Source of the DNA: Ensifer sp. LC163
GTDB taxonomy: Bacteria; Pseudomonadota; Alphaproteobacteria; Rhizobiales; Rhizobiaceae
Length of the DNA: 64,000 bases
Reading direction: 5' to 3'
NCBI RefSeq assembly: GCF_001695855.1
Contig: NZ_MBSS01000023.1
Span: forward strand, 248,001 to 312,000
Shown here piece after piece: positions 6,792 through 19,168 of the stretch. Position 1 is the first letter of the stretch, and each line of letters opens with the position of its first letter. Both the position numbers and the translations under genes were made by a program. Below the pieces are notes generated by a model. The model ran no database searches, was not told the DNA's origin, and saw only the letters and a list, made by a program, of their open reading frames with translations.

Positions 6792-7547
6792 ATGAACCGC
6801 CGTCTCTCCACCCTCGCGCTCGCTTTCTTCACCAGCGTGATCGCCTTTGCCGCCCAGGCCGCCGACGTCAAGAACATCGTCATCGTTCACGGCGCATTGG
6901 CCGACGGCTCCGGCTGGCGCCAGGCAACGGAAATTCTCGAGAAACGAGGCTATGCCGTCACGATCGTCCAGCAGCCCATCACCTCGCTGGCCGATGACAT
7001 TGCCGCCACGAACCGCGTGCTCGATCTACAGGATGGCCCGACCTTGCTCGTCGGACACAGCTATGGCGGCATCGTGATCACCGAGGCCGGCAATCGTGCC
7101 GATGTCGCAGGTCTCGTCTATGTCGCAGCCTTTCAGCCCGACAGGGGCGAAAGCCTGCTGAGCCTTGCCACCTCCAAACCGTCCGGGGGCATGAACATCA
7201 GGGAGACCAAGGACGGGAAATACCTCTATCTCGAACCGAGCGCCTTTGCCGCCGATTTCGCCGCGGACCTTCCGAAGGACGAAGCCGCATTTCTCGCGAA
7301 ATCGCAGGTGTTTGCCGCCAAGGAGGCTTTTTCGGCCAAGGTCGGCGATCCGGCATGGCGGACCAAGAAGAGCTGGTCGATCGTGGCGACGGAAGATCGT
7401 TCCATCAATCCCGATCTCGAGCGGGACATGGCGAAGCGGGCGAGCAGCGACGTGACGGAGATCAAGGCGAGCCATGCGGTCTTTGCCTCCCAACCGGAGA
7501 TGGTTGCCGACGTCATCGAAAAGGCGGCCAAACAGCTCGGCCAGTAG
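6792..7547 (+). CDS. Exported alpha/beta hydrolase (salicylate-esterase/EstC-like)
   Basis: A 251-residue protein with a Sec signal peptide (RRLSTLALAFFTSVIAFAAQA, cut near residue 24). The hydrolase fold has the oxyanion motif VHGALADGSGW, the nucleophile elbow GHSYGG with Ser, and a C-terminal catalytic His in KASHAVFASQPE. This architecture is that of small periplasmic esterases related to plant methyl-salicylate esterases and bacterial EstC-like proteins, for which natural substrates are often unknown. AAGGAGTG precedes the ATG at 6792. It lies 55 bases after dipZ in the same direction and may be co-transcribed. Confidence 0.88.
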   Translation: MNRRLSTLALAFFTSVIAFAAQAADVKNIVIVHGALADGSGWRQATEILEKRGYAVTIVQQPITSLADDIAATNRVLDLQDGPTLLVGHSYGGIVITEAGNRADVAGLVYVAAFQPDRGESLLSLATSKPSGGMNIRETKDGKYLYLEPSAFAADFAADLPKDEAAFLAKSQVFAAKEAFSAKVGDPAWRTKKSWSIVATEDRSINPDLERDMAKRASSDVTEIKASHAVFASQPEMVADVIEKAAKQLGQ

Positions 7548-7703
7548 GTCGATGAGCGGCAGCCGACGTTCAAGGGCATCGGTGGCCGCCATCCATTGAG
7601 CCGGTCCCGACTCGGCGCCACTGGCGTCGGCGTTCCTTCACCTGTTTGGGAACCCGAACGCCTCCAGGCCGTTAGTTGGGATCGACAAAGCGAGGGCAAG
7701 GAC

Positions 7704-8408
7704 ATGAGCATCGATCAACTCGTTCCGGCATCGGATCTCGCAGCCAAGGGCAAGTCGCCCTTTCCCGGCGAAACGGCCGAATACAGGCGGGCGCGACAGG
7801 CACTGCTGCGCGAAGAAATCGAGTTCAGACGGCAGATGACGCGGCTGGTTGAGCTGCGGCGATCTTTGCCGGATGGGCCGGCAATCGAAAAGGACTATCG
7901 CTTCAAGGACGCCAACGGCAACGACATCGGCCTGCTTGACCTCTTCGGCGACAAGCAAACGCTCGTCACCTATTTCTGGATGTACGGGCCACAGCGCCCG
8001 CGCCCCTGCCCGATGTGCACGAACTGGCTCGGCGCCGTCAACGGCAATGCCGCCGATATCAAGCAGCGCGTAGCGCTGAAGATCCTTGGCCGCAGCCCCG
8101 TCGAGCGTCAGCTGGCATTTGCGCAGGAACGTGACTGGCGAGACCTCGATTTCGTCCAGACCGTCGGCGACGACTACGCCAACGACCTCGGCCTCATCAA
8201 TGCCGACGGGAGCGAAAACCCGGCGCTTTCCGTCTTCAAGCGCGACGGCAATACCGTCAGGCTTTTCTGGTCAAGCGAAATGACGATGGAAATGGCCGAC
8301 CCCGGCCAGGACCCGAGGGATGCACCTGACATCGCCTCGCTCTGGTCGATCCTGGACCTGACGCCGGAGGGCCGCGGTGCGGACTGGTATCCGAAACTCA
8401 GCTATTGA
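7704..8408 (+). CDS. DUF899-family thioredoxin-like protein
   Basis: A 234-residue cytoplasmic protein. After a charged helical N-terminus (EYRRARQALLREEIEFRRQM) comes the family core: DYRFKDANGNDIGLLDLFGD, then TYFWMYGPQRPRPCPMCTNW with a CPMC cysteine pair and, towards the end, a Trp/Tyr-rich tail (ADWYPKLSY). DUF899 proteins are peroxiredoxin/thioredoxin-fold proteins of unknown function, common in soil bacteria. The start at 7704 follows GAGGGCAAGGAC; the open frame extends back to 7596 without support. Its position after DipZ and the hydrolases again points to thiol or oxidative metabolism (inference). Confidence 0.85.
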   Translation: MSIDQLVPASDLAAKGKSPFPGETAEYRRARQALLREEIEFRRQMTRLVELRRSLPDGPAIEKDYRFKDANGNDIGLLDLFGDKQTLVTYFWMYGPQRPRPCPMCTNWLGAVNGNAADIKQRVALKILGRSPVERQLAFAQERDWRDLDFVQTVGDDYANDLGLINADGSENPALSVFKRDGNTVRLFWSSEMTMEMADPGQDPRDAPDIASLWSILDLTPEGRGADWYPKLSY

Positions 8409-8723
8409 CCGACGCAGCCATGGGGGGGCGGGCATAGCGAACGCGCCGTAGCCACGGACAACACCTTTCTGCTTGCACCGGCCATCGCCGGCAGACCATT
8501 GCGCTTGCCCGGTATATTTAAGCATTGTAGAAAATTGCAGACGGCCAACTGGCTGTCACCCTTGATCGCCCTGGCCGAGCGGGTGCGGCTAACGCTGGCG
8601 CGAGGCGGCCGAACGGCCTGCCTTTTCTGCTGCCTGTTTGACGGGAAGGGCGCAGAGGCGGCGATCGTCGGGTGCCAACCGAACAGGCAAGGCCTCTCCC
8701 TCCTTCGGTTCTTGAGCTACAAT
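8409..8723. other. Intergenic gap, no gene seen
   Basis: About 315 bases between the DUF899 gene and the SorC promoter. Short open frames on both strands lack a ribosome-binding site and resemble no family. A weak GC-rich hairpin with GGCGGCCG/CGGCCTGCC followed by TTTTC lies near 8604-8625 and could terminate the upstream unit. Confidence 0.3.
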
Positions 8724-8753
8724 TTGACTTATGTCACTAGCGGTGAATAATGT
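8724..8753 (+). promoter_or_regulatory. Candidate promoter and operator of the SorC-type regulator gene
   Basis: A -35-like TTGACT (8724-8729) and a -10-like TAATGT (8748-8753) are spaced by 18 bases, about 30 bases before the start codon. The segment TTTGACTTATGTCA overlapping the -35 resembles the half-sites of the palindrome at 13572-13598, which would fit autoregulation. Confidence 0.45.
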
Positions 8754-8779
8754 CAGAAATCGACCATTGAAGGATTCCT

Positions 8780-9760
8780 ATGCCTGTCCGCAACACCGAC
8801 CAGATCATGCATAAGGCCGCGTGGCTCTACTACAGTCATGGGTTGCGGCAGGACGAAGTCGCGCAGAAGCTGGGGATCTCTCGCGCCTCGGTTGCCACCT
8901 ATCTCAGGCGGGCACGCGAGACCGGAATCGTCAATATCAGCACGTCGACGGAGCTCTTTACCGACGATGTTCTGGCGCGCGAACTCGAGGACGCGACCGG
9001 CGTGACTGCGGCCTGGATCGTGCCGGAGGATCGGCAGGCCATGGACCCTGCCGCGGAAATGCCGGTGCTGGCCGCATCCGTCTTCCTCGAACTCATCAAC
9101 AAGGGCGACCGCGTCGGCGTCGCCTGGGGACGCACGGTCTACCATATCGCCGATGTCATGCCCTTTGCCGACCTGCGGGGCGTGACGGTGGTGCAGCTTT
9201 GTGGCAATCTCGGTGCGCCCTATTCCTATCGGCCGGACCAGTGCACGACGGAGATCGCACGCCGGCTCAACGCCGAAGGCATCAATTTCTATGCGCCACT
9301 GGTGCTGTCGTCCGAGCGGCTGGCCGAGGAGCTTCGCGGCGAGCCGGTGATCCGCGAGCAGCTGTCGACGATCGCCGACTGTCATCTGGCGCTTTATTCC
9401 GTCGGCGGCATCGAAGACGACAGCCACCTCGTCAAGTGCGGCGCGCTCAGCGCCAGCGAGATGCACCGCATGGGCGAGGAAGGTGCCGTCGGCGTCATTG
9501 CCGGACAGTTGATCGACGGGGATGGCCAATGGGTGAACTGCGCCCACAATCGACGCTGCATCTCAGCCGACCTCGATTCGATCCGCGCCATCGGGAAACG
9601 CATGCTGGTCGTCCAGGAAGAGAGCAAGTTCGAGCCGCTGATGGCCGCGCTGAAAGGCGGTTTCGCCTCGCATCTCGTCGTCACGACATCGATGGCGCGC
9701 CGGGTGATGGAACGCTGGCAGCGGGACGGTCTCGACAAGGTGCATGCCGCGACCACCTAA
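8780..9760 (+). CDS. SorC/DeoR-type sugar-binding transcriptional regulator
   Basis: 326 residues: an N-terminal helix-turn-helix (KAAWLYYSHGLRQDEVAQKLGIS, with SRASVATYLRRAR as recognition helix) followed by a large effector domain of the SorC family, which adopts a phosphosugar-isomerase-like fold and binds sugar phosphates (GVAWGRTVYHIADVMP, VVQLCGNLGAPYSYRP). AAGGATTC precedes the ATG. It sits next to, and convergent with, the pentose ABC transporter genes and is the obvious regulator of that transporter and the divergent kinase/isomerase/RLP operon. Its inducer is probably a phosphorylated intermediate of that pathway (inference). Confidence 0.92.
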   Translation: MPVRNTDQIMHKAAWLYYSHGLRQDEVAQKLGISRASVATYLRRARETGIVNISTSTELFTDDVLARELEDATGVTAAWIVPEDRQAMDPAAEMPVLAASVFLELINKGDRVGVAWGRTVYHIADVMPFADLRGVTVVQLCGNLGAPYSYRPDQCTTEIARRLNAEGINFYAPLVLSSERLAEELRGEPVIREQLSTIADCHLALYSVGGIEDDSHLVKCGALSASEMHRMGEEGAVGVIAGQLIDGDGQWVNCAHNRRCISADLDSIRAIGKRMLVVQEESKFEPLMAALKGGFASHLVVTTSMARRVMERWQRDGLDKVHAATT

Positions 9761-9805
9761 GCAAATGTGGAAACGCGCCCTGACGCACAAGGGTGGCAGT
9801 ACACA

Positions 9806-9833
9806 AGCGGGGCGACCTTTCGGCCGCCCCGCT
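9806..9833. terminator. Hairpin between convergent SorC and ABC transporter genes
   Basis: Perfect 9-bp GC-rich arms AGCGGGGCG (9806-9814) and CGCCCCGCT (9825-9833) around a 10-nt loop, placed between the ends of two convergent genes. It probably serves as a bidirectional terminator, although no strong T run follows. Confidence 0.55.
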
Positions 9834-9855
9834 CTCCTTCAAAATAGCCCCGAAA

Positions 9856-10899
9856 TCAGGGCTTCGGCATCCACGCCGGCATGGCGACATCCGCATGGGC
9901 AAATTGCGGCAGCTTCGTGCCGAGTTCTTCCATGTTCTTGATGTCCTGATCGTTCAGGTCCTTCTGTGTGATCAGCGTCGGCGGGACGATGACGCTGCGG
10001 CCCGGATCCTCGCCGGCAAGCAGCATGGCAAGTGTTCTGACGGAGACCTGTCCGACCACGGCCGGATTGGTCGCCGCCGTGGCCGCCCAGGCGGAATCCG
10101 GCTCGCGCATCGCCGCGATATCGGAGGTCGAGATATCGGCGGAATAGATCTTCACGCTGGACGAAAGGCCGGCTTCGTCGACCGCAATCTTGACGCCCTT
10201 GGCGAACTCGTCATAGGGCGCGAACATCACGGTGATATCGGGGTTGGCGGAGATGACGGAACGCGCCTGGTTGGCGACCGAGTTGGCGATCGGGTTGTCC
10301 ATCGTGCCGAACTGCGAGATCTCGTTGATACCCGAATACTTGCCCTTGAATTCCTTCCAGGTTTCGTCGCGACGGTCGAGCGGCGCGATGCCGGCGACGT
10401 AGACGTAGCCAGCCTTGAAGCTCTCGCCGTTGTCCTTGATCGCCTGCTCCAGGGCGAGACGGGCGAGATCGCGGTCGGATTGCTCGACCTGTGGGATCTT
10501 CTCGTTTTCGACGTTCACGTCGAAGGCCACGACCTTGATGCCGGCATCGACGGCGCGCTGGGCCGCTTCCTTCATCGATTCCGTCAGGCCGTGCTGGATG
10601 ATGATCCCCTGCACGCCGAGCGCGATCGCCTGGTCGACCATGTCGGCCTGAAGCGCTGCATCCTGCCGGCTGTCGAGCACCTGAAGCTGAACGCCGAGTG
10701 CCTTTGCCTGCGCCTCCACGCCGGCAAGATAGGACTGGAAGAAGTCGCCGGTCGAGAGATAGCGCACCAGCGCGATCTTGACGTCGCCCGGCTTGTCGAA
10801 CGGCTTCGGCATGTCGGCGGCGAAGGAAGCGGTGGCGAAAGCCACGGTTCCCGCAAGGCCAAGCGCCAGCTTGCCCATTGCTCTGCGTGTAATGTCCAT
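9856..10899 (-). CDS. Periplasmic substrate-binding protein of a ribose-type (CUT2) ABC transporter
   Basis: 347 residues, with a Sec signal (RRAMGKLALGLAGTVAFATASFA) and a periplasmic binding protein type I fold like RbsB: KIALVRYLSTGDFFQSYLAG, GIIIQHGLTESMKEAAQRAV, GIKVVAFDVNVEN. The start at 10899 is set by GGAGGAG six bases upstream. It is the third gene of the ATPase-permease-binding-protein operon running leftwards from 13532. CUT2 systems import pentoses and related monosaccharides; the association with an MtnK-like kinase and MtnA-like isomerase suggests 5-methylthioribose, 5-deoxyribose or a similar pentose as the ligand (inference). Confidence 0.93.
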   Translation of the reverse strand: MDITRRAMGKLALGLAGTVAFATASFAADMPKPFDKPGDVKIALVRYLSTGDFFQSYLAGVEAQAKALGVQLQVLDSRQDAALQADMVDQAIALGVQGIIIQHGLTESMKEAAQRAVDAGIKVVAFDVNVENEKIPQVEQSDRDLARLALEQAIKDNGESFKAGYVYVAGIAPLDRRDETWKEFKGKYSGINEISQFGTMDNPIANSVANQARSVISANPDITVMFAPYDEFAKGVKIAVDEAGLSSSVKIYSADISTSDIAAMREPDSAWAATAATNPAVVGQVSVRTLAMLLAGEDPGRSVIVPPTLITQKDLNDQDIKNMEELGTKLPQFAHADVAMPAWMPKP

Positions 10900-10951
10900 T
10901 TCAGTCTCCTCCACTGGTGAACGTTTGTTTTCCGCCGACAGGGCTTTCCCG

Positions 10952-12019
10952 TCAGCGTTTGCCTCTTTTCGAGAGCGCAAAGGTGAAGATCAGGGCGATG
11001 ACGAGAACCGCGCCCTTGATGAAATCCTGCGTGTAATAGGGCGCGTTCATCATCGTCAGGCCCTGAAGCAGGATGCCGACGAAGAGCGCGCCGATGGCGG
11101 TGCCGAAGGCATTCGGCTTGGCGGCGCCTAGGACCGCGAAGCCGATCAGAGCGGCGGCGACGGCATCGAGCAACAGATTGTTGCCCGAGGCGATGTCGCC
11201 GCGGCCGAGGCGCGCGGCGAGCAGAATGCCGCCGATCGAGGCGAAGACGCCCGAGATGACATAGGCCGAGATTTTGTAGGCATTGACCGGGGCGCCCGCC
11301 AGGCCGGCGGCACGCTCGTTGGAGCCGACCGCATACATCATGCGTCCGAAGCGGGTGTATTCGAGGAAGAACCAGATCAGCACCGCCAGCACGATCAGCA
11401 CCACGACGGCCACGGGCACGAGGTTCGGCAGGATCAGATCGAAGCGATGGCGCCCGAGCGCCAGGAAGGCGGGGCTGAAAGCGCCTGTGGCCACCGAGCC
11501 GTCGGGAAGCGTCATGCCGGCGGCAATCGATCGGCCCTCGGTCGGTATGCGCTGCAGGCCGAGTAGCAGGAACATCATGCCGAGCGTCGCCAAAAGGTCC
11601 GGCACGCGCATATAGACGATGATGACGCCGTTGATCAGCCCGACGAGGACGCCGATCGCCAGGCAGACGAGCGTTGCCGTCAGCGCGTCTCCGCCCATCA
11701 CCACCATCACATAGGATGACGCCATCATCGCCGTGGTCGCGACCGAGCCGATCGACAGGTCGAAGCCGCCGACGACGAGCGTGGCCGTGACGCCGAGCGC
11801 CAGGATGCCGGTGATCGATACGGATTGCAGGATGAAGACGGCGCTCTGCGGCGAGGAAAACCCGTTCGTCACCAGCGAGAAATAGACAACCAGTCCGGCC
11901 AGAAGGGCGAGGAAGCCGTATTTGATCGCGATGTCGCGCAGGCTGACCATGGGACTTGGCGGCGGCGCCGACAGCACCGAAGCGGCGGGCGGCGCGGGTT
12001 TCATCTGTTCACTGCTCAT
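10952..12019 (-). CDS. Ribose-type ABC transporter permease
   Basis: 355 residues with an N-terminal Pro/Ala-rich cytoplasmic tail (to about residue 28) and then eight to ten hydrophobic segments of the RbsC family. Family landmarks include TLVVGGFDLSIGSVATTAMM, LINGVIIVYMRVPDLLATLG and YAVGSNERAAGLAGAPVNAY. It forms the membrane channel for the pentose transporter. Its ATG at 12019 overlaps the end of the ATPase gene by 11 bases, so translation is coupled. Confidence 0.93.
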   Translation of the reverse strand: MSSEQMKPAPPAASVLSAPPPSPMVSLRDIAIKYGFLALLAGLVVYFSLVTNGFSSPQSAVFILQSVSITGILALGVTATLVVGGFDLSIGSVATTAMMASSYVMVVMGGDALTATLVCLAIGVLVGLINGVIIVYMRVPDLLATLGMMFLLLGLQRIPTEGRSIAAGMTLPDGSVATGAFSPAFLALGRHRFDLILPNLVPVAVVVLIVLAVLIWFFLEYTRFGRMMYAVGSNERAAGLAGAPVNAYKISAYVISGVFASIGGILLAARLGRGDIASGNNLLLDAVAAALIGFAVLGAAKPNAFGTAIGALFVGILLQGLTMMNAPYYTQDFIKGAVLVIALIFTFALSKRGKR

Positions 12020-13532
12020 GAGGCTGTACCTGCTGATGATGTTGACCGGCGATCTCCTGGAGGAGGCGCTCGACGTCGACCGCGGCGTTGCGATGCTCGC
12101 CGACGATCGTATGTTCCGACATCACGAGAATGCGGTCGGCGATCTCGAAGGCTTCGTCGAGCTCGGTCAGGAAAACGATGGTTGCGCGGCCGGAGGCCGA
12201 GGCGCGCAGCTTGGCGCCGATATCGCGGCGCGCGGCAATGTCGACGCCCTGGAAGGGCTCGTCGAGAATCAGGAGGCGCGAGGGCTCGGAAAGCCAGCGT
12301 CCGACCATTACCTTCTGCTGATTGCCGCCGGAAAGCGTCTGCATCTCGTCGCGCTCGCTGCGGCAGACGACGCTAAGCGCGGCGATCTGCGCTCGCGATT
12401 TCGCCCGTTCGGCCCGGCGGTTCGATATGCCGAAGCGCGACAGCCGCGTGAGGAACGGCAGGCTGATATTCTCGTAGATGTTGAAATCGGGAACGATGCC
12501 GCTGTCGGCTCGATCCTTGGCGACCAGAAACACGCCCTTGGCAATCGCCTGACCGGTGCTCTGCGGACGGTAGGGCGCGCCGTCGAGCGTCATCCGGCCG
12601 GCCGCTGCCGACCGAGCCCCGAAAAGCGTCTCGGCCAGCGCCGTCTTGCCGACGCCGACGAGACCGGTGACGGCGACGATTTCGCCATCGCCCAGCTCAA
12701 GATCGAACGGTCGCGACGTCTCCGTCAGCCGCAGGCCCTTGACCGAAAAGACCGCTCCATGGGCCTCCCGCACGCTGACCGCACCTGCCGAGACCTTTTG
12801 CCCGAGCATCGCGTTGACAGCACCTTCGTAATCCAGATCCGCCCCCTCGAAGCGGCCGGTGATGCGCCCGTCGCGCAGCGTGACAATGCTGTCGGCGAGC
12901 CTGCGGATGTCGGACATTCGGTGCGAGATATAGAGGATCGCCACACCGCGGGCTTTCAGCCGGTCGATGAGCTCGAACAGGCGATCGGCCTCAGCACTCG
13001 ACAGCGACGAGGTCGGCTCATCGAGGATCAGCACCTGCGGTTCATGCGCCATGGCGCGGGCGATGGCGACCATCTGCCGGTCGGCGAGCGTCAGGTCGTT
13101 GATATCGGCGGAAAGATCGATGGCCAGGCCCATGCGGGCAGCGACGACGGCGGCCTCGCGCCTTACCCGGCGAGGATTGAAGAAAAGGCGCGCACCGCTG
13201 CCGTTCAGGCGATCGAGCGTCAGATTGGTCGCGACGTCGAGATCGGCGACGACGCCGTCATTGATGTTTTGATGGACTGTCACCACGCCGGCCCGGATCG
13301 CTTCCGCCGGCGTTGCCGGCGCGAAAGGGAGGTCGTCCAGCCGCATATCCCCGGCATCGCTGACGTAGACGCCGCTGAGGATGCGCACCAGTGTCGACTT
13401 TCCAGCGCCGTTGGCCCCCATCAGCACCGTGACGGCACCCTTGCGCAATTCGAGATCGACACCCTTCAGGACCGGTATCGGCCCGAAGGATTTGCGCACG
13501 CCCTCGATGCGAAACACTGCTTGTTCGCTCAT
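12009..13532 (-). CDS. Ribose-type ABC transporter ATPase with two nucleotide-binding domains
   Basis: 507 residues, the usual length of RbsA/XylG-type duplicated ATPases. The first domain has Walker A GANGAGKS, signature-region LTLADRQMVAIARA and Walker B VLILDEPTSSL. The second has GLVGVGKTALAETL, LSGGNQQKVMVGRWL and LLILDEPFQGVD. It energises import of the pentose. First gene of its operon, with GGGAGGA upstream of the ATG. The 145-base region between it and the divergent kinase gene contains a perfect 27-bp palindrome that probably controls both directions. Confidence 0.94.
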   Translation of the reverse strand: MSEQAVFRIEGVRKSFGPIPVLKGVDLELRKGAVTVLMGANGAGKSTLVRILSGVYVSDAGDMRLDDLPFAPATPAEAIRAGVVTVHQNINDGVVADLDVATNLTLDRLNGSGARLFFNPRRVRREAAVVAARMGLAIDLSADINDLTLADRQMVAIARAMAHEPQVLILDEPTSSLSSAEADRLFELIDRLKARGVAILYISHRMSDIRRLADSIVTLRDGRITGRFEGADLDYEGAVNAMLGQKVSAGAVSVREAHGAVFSVKGLRLTETSRPFDLELGDGEIVAVTGLVGVGKTALAETLFGARSAAAGRMTLDGAPYRPQSTGQAIAKGVFLVAKDRADSGIVPDFNIYENISLPFLTRLSRFGISNRRAERAKSRAQIAALSVVCRSERDEMQTLSGGNQQKVMVGRWLSEPSRLLILDEPFQGVDIAARRDIGAKLRASASGRATIVFLTELDEAFEIADRILVMSEHTIVGEHRNAAVDVERLLQEIAGQHHQQVQPHEQ

Positions 13533-13571
13533 GCTCTCCTCCCAATGAAGGCAGGTTAGGATGGCTATCCA

Positions 13572-13598
13572 TCAAATGTCAAGGCGATTGACATTTGA
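13572..13598. promoter_or_regulatory. Perfect palindromic operator between the pentose transporter and kinase operons
   Basis: Two perfect 11-bp arms, TCAAATGTCAA (13572-13582) and TTGACATTTGA (13588-13598), flank a 5-base spacer GGCGA. The site sits about 40 bases from the ATPase start and 80 bases from the kinase start. Size, symmetry and position fit a SorC-type operator. The right arm contains TTGACA, so the palindrome may overlap a -35 element. Confidence 0.7.
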
Positions 13599-13677
13599 CA
13601 GAATGGCGAATTACCTATGGCCCATGACAGCATGACGAGGAGCGGCCGAGGCCGGTCATGCCGACAAGGAGGACCAT

Positions 13678-14949
13678 ATGGACAAGCACGTTTTCGAGGC
13701 GCTCAGCGCCGAAACGCTGCCATCAAGGCTGAGCGGCAACTCAGCACTTTGCGACAGGATCGGTGGCGATCATGGCCGCTGGCAGGTCAAGGAGGTCGGC
13801 GACGGCAACCTCAATCTCGTCTTCATCGTCACGGGCGAGAAGGGTGCAGCGATCGTCAAGCAGGCGCTCCCCTATGTCAGGCTCGTCGGCGAGCGCTGGC
13901 CCTTGCCCCTGAAGCGCTCGTTCTTCGAGTACCACGCCCTCATTCGCCAAGCGGCGCGCGACCCGGGCATGGTGCCGGAGATCCTGTTTTTCGACGCCGA
14001 GCAGGCGATGATCATCATGGAATACCTGGCGCCGCACGTGATCCTGCGTCGTGCGCTGATCGAGGGGCGCGCGCTGCCGAAGATCGGCCGCGATCTCGGG
14101 CTTTTCGCCGCCCGCACGCTTTTCCGCGGCTCGGATCTTGCGATGCCGACGCGCGACAAGAAGGCCGATCTCGCCCTTTTCGCCGACAATGTCGAGCTCT
14201 GCGACATCACCGAAAACCTGGTCTTCTCAGATCCTTACTTCGAGGCGGAGATGAACCGCCACACGACACCGCACCTCGACGGTCTCGTCGGGGAATTGCG
14301 CCGCGACCGTGACCTGAAGGTCGAGGCCCAGCGGCTGAAACACATCTTCTCCGCCAAGGCCGAGACGCTCTGCCACGGCGACCTGCACACCGGCTCGGTC
14401 ATGGTCACCGACGACGAGACACGCGTCATCGACCCGGAATTCGCCTTCTACGGGCCGATCAGCTTCGATGTCGGCATGCTGCTCGCCAATTTCTGGATGA
14501 GCTACTTCTCGCAAGGAGGCCATGAGAGCGCTGCCGGCGAACGCGACCAGATGCGCGCCTACCTCCTGGATACCGTCGATACGATCTGGGAAACCTTCTG
14601 CGACGAGTTTTCGACGCTCTGGCGCAGCGAGCGCAAGGGCATCCTCTATCAGGCGAGCCTTTTCGAAGACGGTGACGACCCGTTCGGCTCAGAGCAGGCG
14701 CTGACCATCGTTCTCGATGAGATCTACCGCGAGATGCTCGGCTTTGCCGGGGTCGAGATCCTGCGCCGCATCCTCGGCCTTGCCCACAATGCCGATTTCG
14801 AAACCATCGGCGACCTCAGCCGCCGCGCCGCATGCGAAAGCAAGGCGCTGAAGCTCGGGCGTCATCTTGCCGTCAACCGGGATCGCATTGCGAGCCTCAG
14901 GGACATTCGCGCCACCGCGCAACGGCTTCAGCAGGAGACACTTTCGTGA
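13678..14949 (+). CDS. mtnK: 5-methylthioribose kinase-like sugar kinase (MtnK family)
   Basis: 423 residues, close to the length of known MtnK. It has the protein-kinase-like fold of this family: a nucleotide-binding N-lobe ([25 protein letters not shown]), catalytic loop [13 protein letters not shown] and metal-binding segment [16 protein letters not shown]. MtnK phosphorylates 5-methylthioribose at O1. AAGGAGG precedes the ATG. It opens a tight operon with MtnA, split transketolase and a RuBisCO-like protein, and lies divergent to a pentose importer, so its substrate is probably imported. 5-deoxyribose or another 5-modified ribose is a real alternative to methylthioribose. Confidence 0.88.
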
Positions 14950-16040
14950 AAGTCGGAGAAAAGCACTACCATACGATCTGGCTCAACGCCGACGGCCGCT
15001 CGGTCGACATCATCGACCAGCGCTGGCTACCACACGAGTTCCGGATCGTCACGCTGAAGACGGTCGCCGATGTCGCCGTTGCGATCCGCGACATGTGGGT
15101 GCGCGGCGCACCGCTGATCGGCGTCACCGCCGCCTACGGCATTGCCATCGCCATGGCGGACGATCCCTCCGACCGCCACCTCGACGCGGTCTGGGAGGAG
15201 CTCAACGAGACGCGGCCGACGGCGATCAACCTGCGCTGGGCGCTTGAGGCCATGCGGCAGTTCCTGCGTCCGCTTTCGGTCGAAGACCGTGCAGACGCCG
15301 CCTATCGACGCGCCGCCGAAATCGCCGAGGAAGACGTCCAGCTCAATCGGGCGATCGGCGCCAATGGCCTGAAGATCATCCGCGAGATCGCGGCAAGCAA
15401 GAAGCCCGGCGAGCCGGTCAACATCCTGACCCATTGCAATGCCGGCTGGCTGGCAACCGTCGACTATGGAACCGCGACAGCGCCGATCTACATGGCGACC
15501 GAGGCGGGCATCCCCGTCCATGTCTATGTCGACGAGACCCGGCCGCGCAACCAGGGTGCGCAGCTGACGGCCTGGGAATTGAACGGTCACGGCGTGCCGC
15601 ACACACTGATCGTCGACAATGCCGGCGGCCACCTGATGCAGCACGGCGCCGTCGACATGGTGATCGTCGGCACGGACCGCACTACCGCGAACGGCGATGT
15701 CTGCAACAAGATCGGCACCTACCTGAAGGCGCTTGCCGCCAGCGACAACGACGTTCCCTTCTATGTCGCACTCCCCTCTCCGACCATCGACTGGACCGTC
15801 AAGGACGGCGTCAAGGAAATCCCGATCGAGGAGCGCACTGGCGACGAGGTGAGCTTCGTCCAGGGGCGCGGCCCCGATGGCTCGATCATCTCGGTTCGCG
15901 TCTCGCCCGAAGGTAGCCCTTCGGCGAACCCGGCCTTCGACGTGACGCCGGCGCGGCTCATCACCGGCCTAATCACCGAACGCGGCGTGGCCGTGCCTTC
16001 ACCCGAAGGCCTCAAAGCGCTGTTTCCGGAAAGGAGCTGA
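14946..16040 (+). CDS. mtnA: 5-methylthioribose-1-phosphate isomerase-like protein (MtnA)
   Basis: 364 residues from a GTG start at 14946 that overlaps the kinase stop by 4 bases; AGGAG lies seven bases upstream. Family marks: [26 protein letters not shown], the catalytic cysteine in [16 protein letters not shown] and the catalytic aspartate in [19 protein letters not shown]. MtnA converts methylthioribose-1-phosphate to methylthioribulose-1-phosphate; close homologues act on 5-deoxyribose-1-phosphate or ribose-1,5-bisphosphate. It follows the kinase in the expected order for aldose-1-phosphate to ketose-1-phosphate conversion. Confidence 0.9.
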
Positions 16041-16043
16041 CCG

Positions 16044-16979
16044 ATGAACCTTACAAACCACAAGACGACCGAAGAGATCGCGCTCGGCATCCGCCGCCGC
16101 GTCTTCTTCCACACGATGAAGAACAATGGCGGCTATCTGAGCCAGGCCTGCTCGGCCGCCGAAAGTCTCGCCTTGCTCTACAATGAGATCCTGAAGCTGG
16201 GTGAACCGACCTTGCCGAAGGTGCCGCTGCCGTTTCGCGGCGTGCCTTCCGCCGACAATCCCGATGCCTTCACCGGCGCCGGTTATCACGGCCCGGCCGC
16301 ACCCGAATACGACCGCTTCTTCATCTCGCCGGCGCACTATGCGCTGGTGATCTACTGCGCGCTGATCGAGGTCGACCGCATGGACGATGGTGCGCTCGAC
16401 CACTTCAACAAGGATGGCAGCTCCGTCGAGATGATCGGCGCCGAGCACAGTCCGGGCATGGAGGTAACGACGGGCTCATTGGCGCAGGGGCTTTCCATGG
16501 CCTCCGGCGTCGCCTTCGCACGGCAGAAGCAGAACGAGCCGGGCAAGGTCTGGGTCTACATGTCCGATGGCGAATTCCAGGAAGGCCAGACCTGGGAGTG
16601 CCTAGCCGCCATGGCCCACCACCGGATCGACAACATCCGTGTCGTCGTCGACGTCAACCGCCAGCAATGCGATGGCGCCATGTCCTCGGTTCTCGATCTC
16701 GGCGACCTTGCCGGCAGGGTCGAAGCCTTTGGGGCCACCTGCCGCTCGATCGACGGCCACGATCTGCAAGCCCTGCGCAATGCTGCCAACAGCGCCGAAC
16801 CGGGCAAGCCGCTGATCATCCTCGCCAACACCTCGCCCTTCCAGGGAATGAACTTTCTCCAGAAGCGCTTCCCGCGCCTTCATTACGTGCGCTTCAAGAG
16901 CGCCGAGGAGAGGCTTGAAATGCAGGCAGCACTTGCTGTCGAACTGGGCGTGAGCCCGAACGAAATGGAAGGGGCCTGA
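16044..16979 (+). CDS. Transketolase, N-terminal (thiamine diphosphate-binding) subunit
   Basis: 311 residues corresponding to the first half of transketolase, as in split transketolases. It carries EHSPGMEVTTGSLAQGLSMA (equivalent to the usual TGSLGQGLS region) and the thiamine diphosphate/Mg motif as MSDGEFQEGQTWE ending at VVDVNRQQ. The first Gly of the usual GDG triplet is Ser here. AAGGAGC precedes the start, and the C-terminal partner begins 2 bases after the stop. Split transketolases are known in some sugar catabolic operons (for example apulose-4-phosphate transketolase). Here the pair probably cleaves the ketose phosphate made by the isomerase or RLP (inference). Confidence 0.9.
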   Translation: MNLTNHKTTEEIALGIRRRVFFHTMKNNGGYLSQACSAAESLALLYNEILKLGEPTLPKVPLPFRGVPSADNPDAFTGAGYHGPAAPEYDRFFISPAHYALVIYCALIEVDRMDDGALDHFNKDGSSVEMIGAEHSPGMEVTTGSLAQGLSMASGVAFARQKQNEPGKVWVYMSDGEFQEGQTWECLAAMAHHRIDNIRVVVDVNRQQCDGAMSSVLDLGDLAGRVEAFGATCRSIDGHDLQALRNAANSAEPGKPLIILANTSPFQGMNFLQKRFPRLHYVRFKSAEERLEMQAALAVELGVSPNEMEGA

Positions 16980-16981
16980 CC

Positions 16982-17983
16982 ATGGTCGAAATCGTCAACC
17001 GCCCTTATGCCAAAGCTTTCGAGGCTTTCGCTGCGGCCCGTCCGGAAGTGCTTTGCCTTTCGGCCGACCTGACCTCCTCCTGTGAGGTCGACGGCTTCCG
17101 CGATCGGCATCCGGAGCAGTTCCTGTCGCTGGGGATGGCCGAGCAGAACATGCTCTCCTTCGCCGGCGGGCTTGCGATGCAGGGTTACCGGCCCTTCATC
17201 CACACCTTCTCGGTCTTCCTCTACCGGCGCCCCTACGATCAGCTGATCAATTCGATCGCCTATTCCAATCGCAGGGTGCGTCTGATGGGCTTCCTGCCGG
17301 GGATCACCACGCCCGGCGGCATCACCCATCAGGCGATCGAGGACATCGCCGTCATGCGTGCCGTGCCGAACATGACCATTCTGGAAACCGGCGACGCAAC
17401 CGAGGTCGAAACCGTGCTCGAGGTTGCCGATGCGATCGATGGGCCGGTCTATGTCCGCATCCTTCGCGGCGAAGTCCCCCGGCTCTTCTCGACGCCGTTC
17501 ACGTTCAACAAACTGCGCACCCTTTCGGAAGGTGACGACATCCTCATCGTCAGTTCCGGGGTCTGCACCGAGGAGGCCTTGCGGGCCACCCGGCCGATCG
17601 AAGCACGCGGCATCGGGCTTCATCATCTGCACGCCTCGACGCTGAAACCGTTCGACCGCGACGGGCTGATCAAGGCAGCGCGCGGCAAGAAGGGCGTCGT
17701 CACGCTGGAAAACCACACCATCGTCGGTGGGCTTGGTTCGCTGGTGGCCGAGATCATCGCCGAAGAGGGGCTTGGCGTCCGCCTGAGGCGCCTCGGCCTG
17801 AAGGACACTTTCGCTCATGGCGCCTCGAAGCCGTACCTGATGAAGAAGTATGGCCTGGACGCCGGCGCGCTGGTGTCGGCGATCGAGGAACTGACCGGCA
17901 AGACGCTCGGGATCGGCGAGGACGAGCTGACCGAGGTTCGTCTCGATCATGTGCATTCGGCGCAGAAGGCGGAGGCGCTCTGA
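16982..17983 (+). CDS. Transketolase, C-terminal subunit
   Basis: 333 residues covering the pyrimidine-binding and C-terminal domains. The catalytic glutamate that activates thiamine diphosphate is in LGMAEQNMLSFAGGLAMQG; further marks are HTFSVFLYRRPYDQL, GGITHQAIEDIAVMRAVPNM and, in the last domain, VTLENHTIVGGLGS. It must assemble with the subunit encoded just upstream to form an active site. Its stop overlaps the start of the RuBisCO-like gene by one base. Length and motifs are those of a functional protein rather than a relic. Confidence 0.9.
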   Translation: MVEIVNRPYAKAFEAFAAARPEVLCLSADLTSSCEVDGFRDRHPEQFLSLGMAEQNMLSFAGGLAMQGYRPFIHTFSVFLYRRPYDQLINSIAYSNRRVRLMGFLPGITTPGGITHQAIEDIAVMRAVPNMTILETGDATEVETVLEVADAIDGPVYVRILRGEVPRLFSTPFTFNKLRTLSEGDDILIVSSGVCTEEALRATRPIEARGIGLHHLHASTLKPFDRDGLIKAARGKKGVVTLENHTIVGGLGSLVAEIIAEEGLGVRLRRLGLKDTFAHGASKPYLMKKYGLDAGALVSAIEELTGKTLGIGEDELTEVRLDHVHSAQKAEAL

Positions 17984-19101
17984 TGGCCCCACGGTTCACC
18001 GTCAGCTATTACGTCAGGGCCGCCGACGAGGCCGAGGCGCGCGCACGGGCGCTGGACATCGCTCTCGAACAGACAGTCGAGATCCCGCGCGACGTCGTGC
18101 CCAAGGGCTATGTCGAGGATGAAATCCTCGGCAAACTTGAAACCCTCGAGCGGGATCCCAGCGGCCGTCCCGGCTATCTCGCAACGATCTCCTATAGCGA
18201 GGACGATGTCGGTGGCGACTTCCTGCAGTTTCTCAACATCGTCTTCGGCAACAGCTCGATCAAGCCGGGATTGAAGGTCGAGGACATCGGCCTGTCGCCG
18301 GGCACCCTCGCGCTTTGCCCGGGCCCGCGGCATGGCATTGCCGGGCTGCGGCAAAGGGCCGGCATCGGGGCTCAGCCGCTGTTGATGTCCGCCATCAAGC
18401 CGGTCGGGCTGTCCTCATCCGAACTCGCGCGCCGCGCGCATGATTTCGCGCTCGGCGGCATGCACTACGTCAAGGATGACCATGGGCTGGTCGATCAAAG
18501 AACGTCGCCATTTGCCGAGCGGCTGGCGGCCTGCGTCGACGCCGTCGGCGAAGCCAATGCCAAGAGCGGCGGGCGGGCGAGTTTTGTGCCGAATATCACC
18601 GCGTCCGCCAAAGACCTGTTCGAGCGGGCGATGATGGCGCAGGAGGCCGGCGCCGGCGGCGTCATGATTTCCCCGGCGCTTGCCGGCTATGACGCGATCC
18701 ACACGCTGGCGTCCGATCCGGACTTCAGCCTGCCGATCGTTTCGCATCCGGCGTTTTCCGGCGCCAACGTCGTGTCGCCGGATACCGGCTTTTCGCATCG
18801 CTGCTTCTACGGCGCCTTGCAGCGGCTGATGGGCGCCGATGCGGCGATCTATCCCAATTTCGGCGGACGTTTCGGCTTTACCCGCGAGGAATGCCAGTCG
18901 ATCGCTGCCGCCTGCGCCGACGACATGGGTGGCCCGAAGGCGATCGTGCCGGCCCCCGGCGGCGGCATGAATCTCGGCCGCGTGCCGGAGATGCGCGAAG
19001 CCTATGGCAACAACGTGATGTACCTGATCGGCGGTGCGTTGCTGCAGGACACGGACATCGTTTCGGCCAGCCGCCGGATCGTCGAGGCGGTCGCAGGCTA
19101 A
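17983..19101 (+). CDS. RuBisCO-like protein (form IV large-subunit homologue)
   Basis: 372 residues, shorter than a true RuBisCO large subunit. An N-terminal alpha/beta domain (to about residue 125) is followed by the barrel with AIKPVGLSSSELARRA (the lysine equivalent to the proton-abstracting KPK loop), GGMHYVKDDHGLVDQ (carbamylation-site lysine and metal-binding Asp) and PAPGGGMNLGRVPEM (phosphate site). The usual Glu of KDDE is His, and the loop-6 lysine that positions CO2 is missing (the region reads YPNFGGRFGFTREE). So it should enolise a ketose-1-phosphate but not carboxylate. Rhodospirillum RLP isomerises methylthioribulose-1-phosphate; others act as transcarboxylases in apiose degradation. 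Last gene of the operon. Confidence 0.92.
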   Translation: MAPRFTVSYYVRAADEAEARARALDIALEQTVEIPRDVVPKGYVEDEILGKLETLERDPSGRPGYLATISYSEDDVGGDFLQFLNIVFGNSSIKPGLKVEDIGLSPGTLALCPGPRHGIAGLRQRAGIGAQPLLMSAIKPVGLSSSELARRAHDFALGGMHYVKDDHGLVDQRTSPFAERLAACVDAVGEANAKSGGRASFVPNITASAKDLFERAMMAQEAGAGGVMISPALAGYDAIHTLASDPDFSLPIVSHPAFSGANVVSPDTGFSHRCFYGALQRLMGADAAIYPNFGGRFGFTREECQSIAAACADDMGGPKAIVPAPGGGMNLGRVPEMREAYGNNVMYLIGGALLQDTDIVSASRRIVEAVAG

Positions 19102-19140
19102 GCGCCCGGCGGTTCAGCTACGAGATAGCCTCCCAAGGCT

Positions 19141-19168
19141 CTGCCGGGCGCGACGGTGCGCCCGGCAG
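19141..19168 (+). terminator. Probable terminator of the mtnK-RLP operon
   Basis: Perfect 11-bp arms CTGCCGGGCGC (19141-19151) and GCGCCCGGCAG (19158-19168) with a 6-nt loop, followed by GTTTGAT, 40 bases after the RLP stop. It also lies just beyond the end of the convergent MFS gene. Confidence 0.6.

Follow-up and report, generated by a model that had tools for sequence, protein, structure and literature searches.

Three described pathways come closest to the locus reported here. The 5'-methylthioadenosine (MTA)-isoprenoid shunt of Rhodospirillum rubrum and Rhodopseudomonas palustris runs through MtnP, MtnA, a RuBisCO-like protein (RLP) of the DeepYkr kind and a cupin methylsulfurylase; for the R. 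palustris enzyme RLP1, a passage of PMC5893883 gives conversion of 5-(methylthio)ribulose-1-phosphate to 1-(methylthio)xylulose-5-phosphate and 1-(methylthio)ribulose-5-phosphate at 3:1. The dihydroxyacetone phosphate (DHAP) shunt uses MtnP or MtnK, MtnA and a class II aldolase (Ald2/DrdA), and the universal methionine salvage pathway of Bacillus includes MtnK, MtnA and the RLP MtnW. Here we describe a locus in a stretch of 64,000 nt (the window) from Ensifer sp. LC163 (NZ_MBSS01000023.1, positions 248,001–312,000, forward strand), in which genes for an MtnK-family kinase, an MtnA-family isomerase, the two halves of a split transketolase (TK)-like enzyme (TkN and TkC) and an RLP form one tight operon, with spacings of 2–3 bp or overlaps of 1–4 bp. 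The operon is divergent from the three genes of a ribose-type ABC (ATP-binding cassette) importer and lies near a gene for a SorC-family regulator. All nine genes and their arrangement, proposed earlier from the sequence alone (the first-pass annotation), were recovered by coordinates and family calls. We read the locus as real and conserved, and as a probably undescribed form of RLP-dependent methylthioribose/MTA salvage whose cupin is replaced by a noncanonical split TK.

With the MTA-isoprenoid shunt the locus shares MtnA and an RLP that belongs to the same group and keeps most conserved residues, and 1-(methylthio)xylulose-5-phosphate is the expected common intermediate. The shunt has a cupin, whereas the locus has a split thiamine diphosphate (ThDP) enzyme beside the RLP, and the shunt is fed through MtnP, whereas the Rhizobiales tested use MtnK and an importer. 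Induction of the known shunt by MTA is reported both ways in passages of PMC5893883 and PMC4958253, and regulation therefore offers no clear difference from it. The first two steps of the DHAP shunt are the same here, and a class II aldolase is present in the cluster of 34 of the 48 related loci described below. In those relatives, however, the aldolase is fused to a short-chain dehydrogenase (SDR), the window lineage is without it, and the RLP and TK are additional. Universal methionine salvage resembles the locus in MtnK, MtnA and the presence of an RLP, but the RLP here falls under both MtnW cut-offs; none of the seven flanking genes scanned is MtnB-, MtnX- or MtnD-like, the rest of the genome not having been searched. 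Catabolic split TKs serve sulfoquinovose (SqwGH) and apulose (AptAB) breakdown. TkN and TkC show the same two-gene domain split as the TK of Carboxydothermus hydrogenoformans (6yak/6yaj), but they form a separate clade with Tyr for H30 and no GH motif, in a comparison of split TKs from which SqwGH and AptAB themselves were absent.

We examined which genes accompany related RLPs outside the Rhizobiales. RLP matches were found in 17 of 385 genomes of a class sample, 7 of 398 of a phylum sample, 11 of 73 in the family of genome G360 and 2 of 5 in the order of genome G218; these samples overlap and include the window genome (G000). From these searches, 31 non-rhizobial RLP stretches were examined by tblastn with queries that included four of their own cupins (L123 and L124 are not RLP loci and stand outside the 31). 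A cupin gene follows the RLP on the same strand in 24 of the 31 (about 1 kb away in L116), the layout known from R. rubrum and R. palustris, and TkN–TkC lies directly upstream of the RLP in five (L067, L068, L108, L119 and L120), which belong to three families of the same class. Within the stretches examined, cupin and TkN–TkC never occur together (0/31). Two loci have neither partner: the contig of L073 ends after the RLP, and L122 carries a distant RLP. Pfam assigned Cupin_2 to one locus cupin and to one annotated cupin beside a Terrarubrum RLP. The four cupins gave no tblastn match (E 1e-4) in the window, the 48 related rhizobial loci or the five TK–RLP stretches, the rest of the genomes not having been searched.

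A single open reading frame (ORF) of 656 aa (L068) or 648 aa (L108) encodes both MtnA and TkN in two of the five TK–RLP loci, whose two genomes belong to one genus; hmmscan found both domains in the L108 protein. Just upstream of the fusion in L068 is a SorC-like match (26% identity). In L119 and L120, genes for a tripartite ATP-independent periplasmic (TRAP)-type transporter diverge from TkN–TkC–RLP (DctP was checked in L119, the rest by eye), and this transporter may be the substrate importer in that family.

Within the Rhizobiales, one search of genome contigs gave 48 related loci from Ensifer, Sinorhizobium, Rhizobium, Shinella, Brucella/Ochrobactrum, Ciceribacter, Gellertiella, Metarhizobium, Devosia and other Rhizobiales, with gene order read by tblastn. 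The five core genes and the three importer genes occur in identical order in 47 of the 48; the exception, L026, is a contig that begins inside TkN and is too short for the comparison. The first-pass annotation had proposed conservation of the five-gene order across Rhizobiales as a check. The order is kept there, but the system is not confined to the Rhizobiales: it also occurs in another three families of that class, on a Roseobacteraceae plasmid and, in a divergent form, in Vibrio. Among the five proteins, conservation is lowest for the RLP (63–94% identity, against 81–98% for MtnA and 83–97% for TkC), and identity of the periplasmic sugar-binding protein is 80–98% (tblastn). The SorC gene falls inside the fetched flank in seven of the 48 loci and lies farther out in 13 of 16 extended loci. 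In L047 (Brucella cytisi, 7417–10062), the best matches to MtnA, TkC and the RLP begin late, suggesting assembly frame breaks.

A palindrome located between the importer ATPase gene and MtnK (Table 1) is also present, with two mismatches or fewer, in 47 of the 48 loci, the region being missing from L026. It was not found in the five non-rhizobial TK–RLP loci, and its chance expectation from shuffles of the window was 0. The palindrome is a likely operator, and we infer that SorC is the protein that binds the 27 bp.

Table 1. Positions of the locus genes and the candidate operator in the window, with family support, and of two plasmid loci that carry the split TK with no RLP within 9 kb
Feature	Position	Strand	Support or remark
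SorC-family sugar-binding transcriptional regulator	8780..9760	+	Pfam Sugar-bind PF04198, 168 bits (cut-off 27)
Periplasmic sugar-binding protein (SBP), ribose-type ABC importer	9856..10980	-	Peripla_BP_4, 114.5 bits (cut-off 35.1)
Importer permease, ribose/AraH/LsrCD type	10952..12019	-	BPD_transp_2, 134.7 bits (cut-off 26.8)
Importer ATPase, sugar type, two ABC domains	12009..13532	-	ABC_tran in two stretches
27-bp palindrome TCAAATGTCAA-N5-TTGACATTTGA	13572..13598	.	Divergent promoter, 0 mismatches; candidate operator
MtnK, S-methyl-5-thioribose kinase family	13678..14949	+	TIGR01767, 482 bits (cut-off 275)
MtnA, S-methyl-5-thioribose-1-phosphate isomerase family	14946..16040	+	TIGR00512, 443 bits (cut-off 279)
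TkN, N-terminal ThDP-binding half of split transketolase-like enzyme	16044..16979	+	Transketolase_N, 62.7 bits (cut-off 22)
TkC, C-terminal half (pyrimidine-binding and C domains)	16982..17983	+	Transket_pyr, 100.5 bits; Transketolase_C, 76.3 bits
RLP, RuBisCO-like protein of the R. rubrum/R. palustris RLP1 (DeepYkr) kind	17983..19101	+	RuBisCO_large, 85 bits (cut-off 30)
TK loci of two plasmids	L198 1441-10005; L199 1472-10005		No RLP within 9 kb

The closest solved structures are 2pyw and 2olc for MtnK, 1t9k for MtnA (whose gene starts with GTG and overlaps MtnK by 4 bp), the split TK 6yak for TkN and 6yaj for TkC. The importer ATPase is AraG/YtfR/LsrA-like and scores under the cut-offs of the sugar-importer models among the best 25 of 192 families. 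By Pfam, the seven flanking genes are unrelated to the locus (thioredoxin-like, alpha/beta hydrolase, DUF899, MFS, GNAT, IclR and a solute-binding protein).

For the RLP, the closest solved structure is 3qfw (244 bits), which we take to be R. palustris RLP1. Assignment as MtnW was rejected on scores far under the cut-offs of two MtnW models (194 bits, cut-off 409; 152 bits, cut-off 514), and assignment as the apionate enzyme OiaX on 62 bits against a cut-off of 700 (NF042437). The same score disfavours activity as a 3-oxo-isoapionate-4-phosphate transcarboxylase, which the first-pass annotation had named as an outcome that would overturn its route. The RLP tree and residue table comprised 51 rows, including the window and 17 of the 48 rhizobial loci, with L047 left out. 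All 23 TK-linked RLPs fall on one side of a single branch; the cupin-linked RLPs are weak as a unit (67/7), and cupin linkage may therefore be ancestral. K139, K164, D166 and H255 are nearly invariant in TK-linked and cupin-linked RLPs, and both groups have in common, unlike one MtnW, H167, Q172, N292, G294, R296 and F297. The clearest difference between them is a short loop near 269–272 that is missing in most cupin-linked RLPs; the RLPs of L119 and of the Ponticoccus plasmid described below have Glu at 165. Because these residues are shared with cupin-linked RLPs and R. palustris RLP1 has the activity given above, the window RLP likely catalyzes the same step and makes 1-(methylthio)xylulose-5-phosphate, as predicted by homology to the tested enzymes. 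A second RuBisCO-family gene, ∼24% identical to the window RLP, is present in the window genome (G000:C33:11777-12589, L001).

Between them, TkN and TkC contain all three Pfam domains of a ThDP enzyme. TkC scores 163 bits with the dxs model (cut-off 466), and TkN scores 25 bits with DXP_synthase_N (cut-off 21.2). In a TkC tree that included the window, seven of the 48 rhizobial loci and the five non-rhizobial ones, the RLP-linked sequences form a clade with support of 100/100 on a long stem. Their nearest relatives in the sample (84/68, moderate support) are other split TKs, several of which adjoin SDR and TRAP genes. Within the sister group that has Tyr and no GH motif, L171, L173 and L174 stand beside SDR genes and L171, L174 and L175 beside TRAP genes. 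The catalytic Glu (Glu54 of TkC) is present in 54/54 rows, and H69 and Arg162 are also kept. Across the 289 genomes of the class sample, matches above 50% to this TK subfamily occur only in G000 and G218. Three candidate hallmarks were dropped: loss of the H469/D477 equivalents, since many other split TKs are also without His at the first of these positions; a TkC-specific Arg (R7), since the column is shifted by one in other sequences; and exclusive linkage of the TK subfamily to the RLP, which was upheld by the class sample but is broken by two plasmids (from Marinovum and Paracoccus seriniphilus).

The enzymes that would feed the pathway differ between lineages. MTA phosphorylase was found in all five non-rhizobial TK–RLP genomes, over the cut-off in four, and MtnK in none of them (0/5). 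The G360 match to MTA phosphorylase is in two pieces of 209 and 79 bits (G360:C227:16874-17595), from a frame break or an assembly error. The four Rhizobiales tested (the window genome, a Shinella, another Rhizobiales bacterium and a Devosia) all carry MtnK, and none of the four has an MTA phosphorylase over the cut-off of 274.85 (best 98 bits; window genome 93 bits). MtnA is present in 16 of the 16 genomes tested, 15 of them over the cut-off.

A plasmid of Ponticoccus alexandrii (L194 1-9128) carries in one run genes for a purine nucleoside phosphorylase (PNP), an amidohydrolase, MtnA, a molybdopterin enzyme, TkN, TkC and the RLP; the run diverges from a gene whose annotation is BMP-family binding protein and whose fragment matched no NCBIfam model. 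The PNP is over its cut-off. Among solved structures, the amidohydrolase is closest to an MTA/S-adenosylhomocysteine (SAH) deaminase and the molybdopterin enzyme to dimethyl sulfoxide (DMSO) reductase. The gene content points to 5'-substituted adenosines and may serve the use of an oxidised methylthio nucleoside; the S/N-oxide-reductase-like enzyme hints at a sulfur substituent, whereas the ranking of deaminase models does not. Because MTA phosphorylase and MtnK replace one another and the Ponticoccus operon holds nucleoside enzymes, the substrate is probably a 5-substituted ribose, 5-methylthioribose (MTR) being the best candidate. Among the sugars raised in the first-pass annotation, a 5-substituted ribose derived from MTA-like nucleosides thus fits best and 5-deoxyribose is possible, but plain ribose is unlikely.

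Many relatives of the window locus carry one further gene, for a 684-aa fusion of a class II aldolase and an SDR (Pfam Aldolase_II and adh_short). Its best family is the bifunctional aldolase/short-chain dehydrogenase PRK08324.1-6 (1158 bits, cut-off 639), and it scores 478 bits with the RhaD model (cut-off 568). Whole or partial matches are present in the fetched flank of 34 of the 48 loci. In 13 of the 16 extended loci the fusion gene follows SorC, between SorC and the importer, with other ORFs separating it from the importer in L063; of the remaining three, L065 stops at the binding protein, and other genes occupy the position in L058 and L064. A search for the fusion, which did not extend to Ald2/DrdA, found no match in the window; there, as in L003–L007, L031 and L034, SorC is present with no fusion adjoining the importer. 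The best copy in the window genome is a 52% paralogue on another contig. A paralogous aldolase/SDR fusion at 51–52% identity (L124 5534-9030, G000:C19) is divergent from a SorC-like regulator of its own. The earlier statement that no known downstream gene accompanies the operon therefore stands for the window, but most relatives hold the aldolase/SDR fusion. To judge from its class II aldolase domain, the fusion may form a DHAP-shunt arm that splits the same 5-X-ribulose-1-phosphate as the RLP would use (X being the substituent).

Plasmid records showed the same association. Where TkC reaches at least 52% identity, the RLP adjoins it in 22 of 24 records, and where the RLP reaches at least 60%, TkC adjoins it in 19 of 20, some records in these counts being near-copies. 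On a plasmid of Vibrio nigripulchritudo (L196 3874-10551), TkN–TkC–RLP occurs with an FGGY kinase and an SDR, and the stretch has no MtnA or MtnK match. In this RLP (34% identity), the KDD region retains its Lys and Asp and position 255 its His, but H167 is replaced by Asp and N292 and G294 are also changed; the reaction of this RLP may therefore differ.

Starting from the observed gene content and order, the exchange of partners, the MtnA–TkN fusion and the retained RLP residues, the reading that we consider probable on balance is import and breakdown of a 5-substituted ribose, in which the RLP makes 1-X-xylulose-5-phosphate and the ThDP enzyme cleaves it. Such a route would probably be inducible, and its sugar would most likely be MTR, possibly also 5-deoxyribose. 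The importer would take up the sugar, MtnK would convert it to 5-X-ribose-1-phosphate and MtnA would isomerise this to 5-X-ribulose-1-phosphate. The RLP would then move the carbonyl to give 1-X-xylulose-5-phosphate, as do its relatives in R. rubrum and R. palustris. Finally, TkN–TkC with ThDP would attack C2 and cut between C2 and C3, releasing glyceraldehyde-3-phosphate and a two-carbon piece that carries X. This last step is suggested by gene position and by the fusion; if TkN–TkC cleaves the RLP product, it would occupy the place of the cupin in the MTA-isoprenoid shunt. The sequence kinase, isomerase, RLP and transketolase was put forward in the first-pass annotation and remains the most economical, given the RLP residues, the position of the TK and the MtnA–TkN fusion, but it is incomplete; we hold the order of steps with moderate confidence.

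Where X is SCH3, chemical analogy with phosphoketolase would favour loss of methanethiol and production of an acetyl unit. A tentative, more specific proposal, which may well be wrong, is that the TK is a thio-phosphoketolase converting 1-(methylthio)xylulose-5-phosphate to glyceraldehyde-3-phosphate, methanethiol and acetyl-ThDP, and then acetyl phosphate or acetate, with the ThDP-bound enamine expelling methanethiol.

Several observations weigh against cleavage of the RLP product by this enzyme or against the wider route, beginning with the active site of the TK. The position of His30 (yeast TK numbering for His30 and His103) is Tyr in 53/53 readable rows, and the GH motif containing His103 is present in 0/54, in a region with small gaps where the alignment is less sure. 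In a set of 28 other split TKs, His occupies the first position in 19, of which 18 also have the GH motif, and nine have Tyr and no motif; to judge from the related Tyr-type enzymes, the Tyr change by itself does not define the substrate. Lacking H30/H103 equivalents, the TK may fail to cleave the expected ketose. As these residues are replaced or missing, plain ketol transfer is not to be assumed. Cleavage by a transketolase, as first suggested, is therefore borne out in that the pair takes the position of the cupin beside the RLP, but not in that the enzyme is an ordinary TK. Its donor is unlikely to be a standard ketose whose C1 hydroxyl is free, an expectation that fits a 1-substituted xylulose-5-phosphate.

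On the same side of the balance, support for the branch that separates the TK-linked RLPs is moderate (89/89), and the RLP of L067 (G360) is without the stretch containing H255; it may be inactive or altered, or reflect an assembly fault. Linkage to MtnA is not universal, because genomes G775 (L120) and G803 (L119) carry MtnA on another contig and their TK–RLP loci adjoin the TRAP transporter. In family searches, neither the importer nor SorC matched a family of known ligand. Of the two deaminase models, that for 5'-deoxyadenosine fits the Ponticoccus amidohydrolase better (301 bits) than that for MTA/SAH (220 bits), which favours 5-deoxyribose, and the protein reaches no family cut-off among the matches listed; the molybdopterin enzyme is BisC-like at 901 bits, below the cut-off of 1018. 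A Shinella zoogloeoides plasmid (L202 11983-12993) carries a lone truncated RLP whose match begins at residue 43; neither TkN nor TkC has a match nearby, and the gene looks like a relic. The aldolase/SDR fusion, where present, could be the real next step, with the RLP and TK then serving something else.

The two plasmids that break the linkage, L198 (P. seriniphilus) and L199 (Marinovum algicola), also count against the route: they carry the same TK subfamily (TkN 64% and TkC 67–68% identity) with no RLP within 9 kb. Their neighbours are a BisC-like reductase, a xylulokinase-like FGGY kinase, a zinc-type dehydrogenase and a class II aldolase/epimerase (by family check in Paracoccus and by annotation in Marinovum), together with a sulfatase and a regulator of SorC-like type (32%), and the set looks like a different sugar route. 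No RLP would be needed if a kinase formed a 1-substituted xylulose-5-phosphate directly; these loci therefore need not contradict the model, but they limit it.

Two alternatives keep the enzymes and change the substrate or the main step. If X is H, the RLP would give 1-deoxyxylulose-5-phosphate (DXP), and the TK would run a DXP-synthase-like reaction backwards to glyceraldehyde-3-phosphate and an acetaldehyde unit. We regard this as unlikely but worth serious attention: the DHAP shunt of Escherichia coli is described in PMC10986504 and PMC12632272 as serving MTA and 5'-deoxyadenosine alike, TkC matches dxs below its cut-off, TkN exceeds that of DXP_synthase_N, and the Ponticoccus amidohydrolase ranks the 5'-deoxyadenosine deaminase above the MTA/SAH deaminase, both below cut-off. 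It fits less well with MTRK and MtnA models far over their cut-offs (though such enzymes may be promiscuous), with MTA phosphorylase as the feed-in enzyme elsewhere, with a DMSO-reductase-closest enzyme in the Ponticoccus operon, which suits a sulfur substituent, and with a higher score of TkN for Transketolase_N (62.7 bits) than for DXP_synthase_N. A two-armed arrangement is also rather improbable in our view: the aldolase/SDR fusion would be the main catabolic step, a DHAP shunt with an attached dehydrogenase, and the RLP and TK would carry out a side reaction, detoxifying or re-using another 5-substituted sugar, with 5-deoxyribose or MTR as TK acceptor (compare 7-deoxysedoheptulose). The fusion is in the locus of 13 of the 16 extended relatives, and R. 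palustris has aldolase and RLP routes from one intermediate according to a passage of PMC5893883. A passage of PMC8102628 has a Synechococcus transketolase turning 5-deoxyribose into 7-deoxysedoheptulose and suggests a promiscuous transketolase step in 5'-deoxyadenosine salvage by Methanocaldococcus jannaschii, with no RLP in that passage. However, the core persists where no fusion adjoins the importer (the window, L003–L007, L031 and L034), the stretches of the five non-rhizobial carriers (6–19 kb) have no fusion match, and the MtnA–TkN fusion binds the TK to the phosphorylated branch.

The other two alternatives assign the genes to different sugars, and both seem to us highly improbable, the second marginally more so. 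Apiose catabolism uses split TKs, and the RLP could be a 3-oxo-isoapionate-4-phosphate enzyme (OiaX/OiaT) or a hamamelose-pathway oxygenase, with a TK resembling the split D-apulose-4-phosphate transketolase. An Ochrobactrum RLP is placed in the hamamelose pathway in work cited in a passage of PMC8914248. The OiaX score lies far below its cut-off, however, and the second RuBisCO-family gene of the genome could fill such a role. We know of no place for MtnK or MtnA in the apionate or hamamelose pathways. In an ordinary pentose route, MtnK, MtnA and the RLP would turn plain ribose into xylulose-5-phosphate, the classical donor of a normal TK, which agrees with a ribose-like importer. Ribose, however, needs only a ribokinase, the TK is without two canonical active-site residues, and MtnK is replaced elsewhere by MTA phosphorylase.

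In the open-access literature we found no description of an RLP and TK pair for methylthioribose, in agreement with the first-pass view that such a route is undescribed; one may exist elsewhere. Related work found there concerns the known shunts and sulfoquinovose transketolases. A paper retrieved with RuBisCO-like and transketolase terms (PMC7895386) concerns the Calvin cycle in the passage that matched. According to a passage of PMC8914248, an RLP of Rhizobium etli near 'ribose transport and assimilation' genes was mutated without a known function emerging, the location data not being shown. Identity of the window RLP with that protein was considered and set aside, as no link between them could be shown; R. 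etli and R. phaseoli are absent from the 20 plasmid records with an RLP of at least 60% identity.

If the proposed route is correct, it would be a way of using MTA-derived sugar in which a ThDP enzyme, and not a cupin, carries out C–S release and carbon recovery, and isomerase-type RuBisCO-like proteins would gain a second partner. Should the thio-phosphoketolase proposal hold, RuBisCO and transketolase relatives would act in tandem in methionine salvage or carbon use that needs neither oxygen nor glutathione. The idea is directly testable because the gene set is small, conserved and present in cultured species. Methylthioribose is a by-product of plant ethylene and polyamine metabolism. The route would explain how Rhizobiales such as the four tested, in which no MTA phosphorylase exceeds the cut-off, could use it as a source of carbon and sulfur, and methanethiol in soil may have an unrecognised source here.

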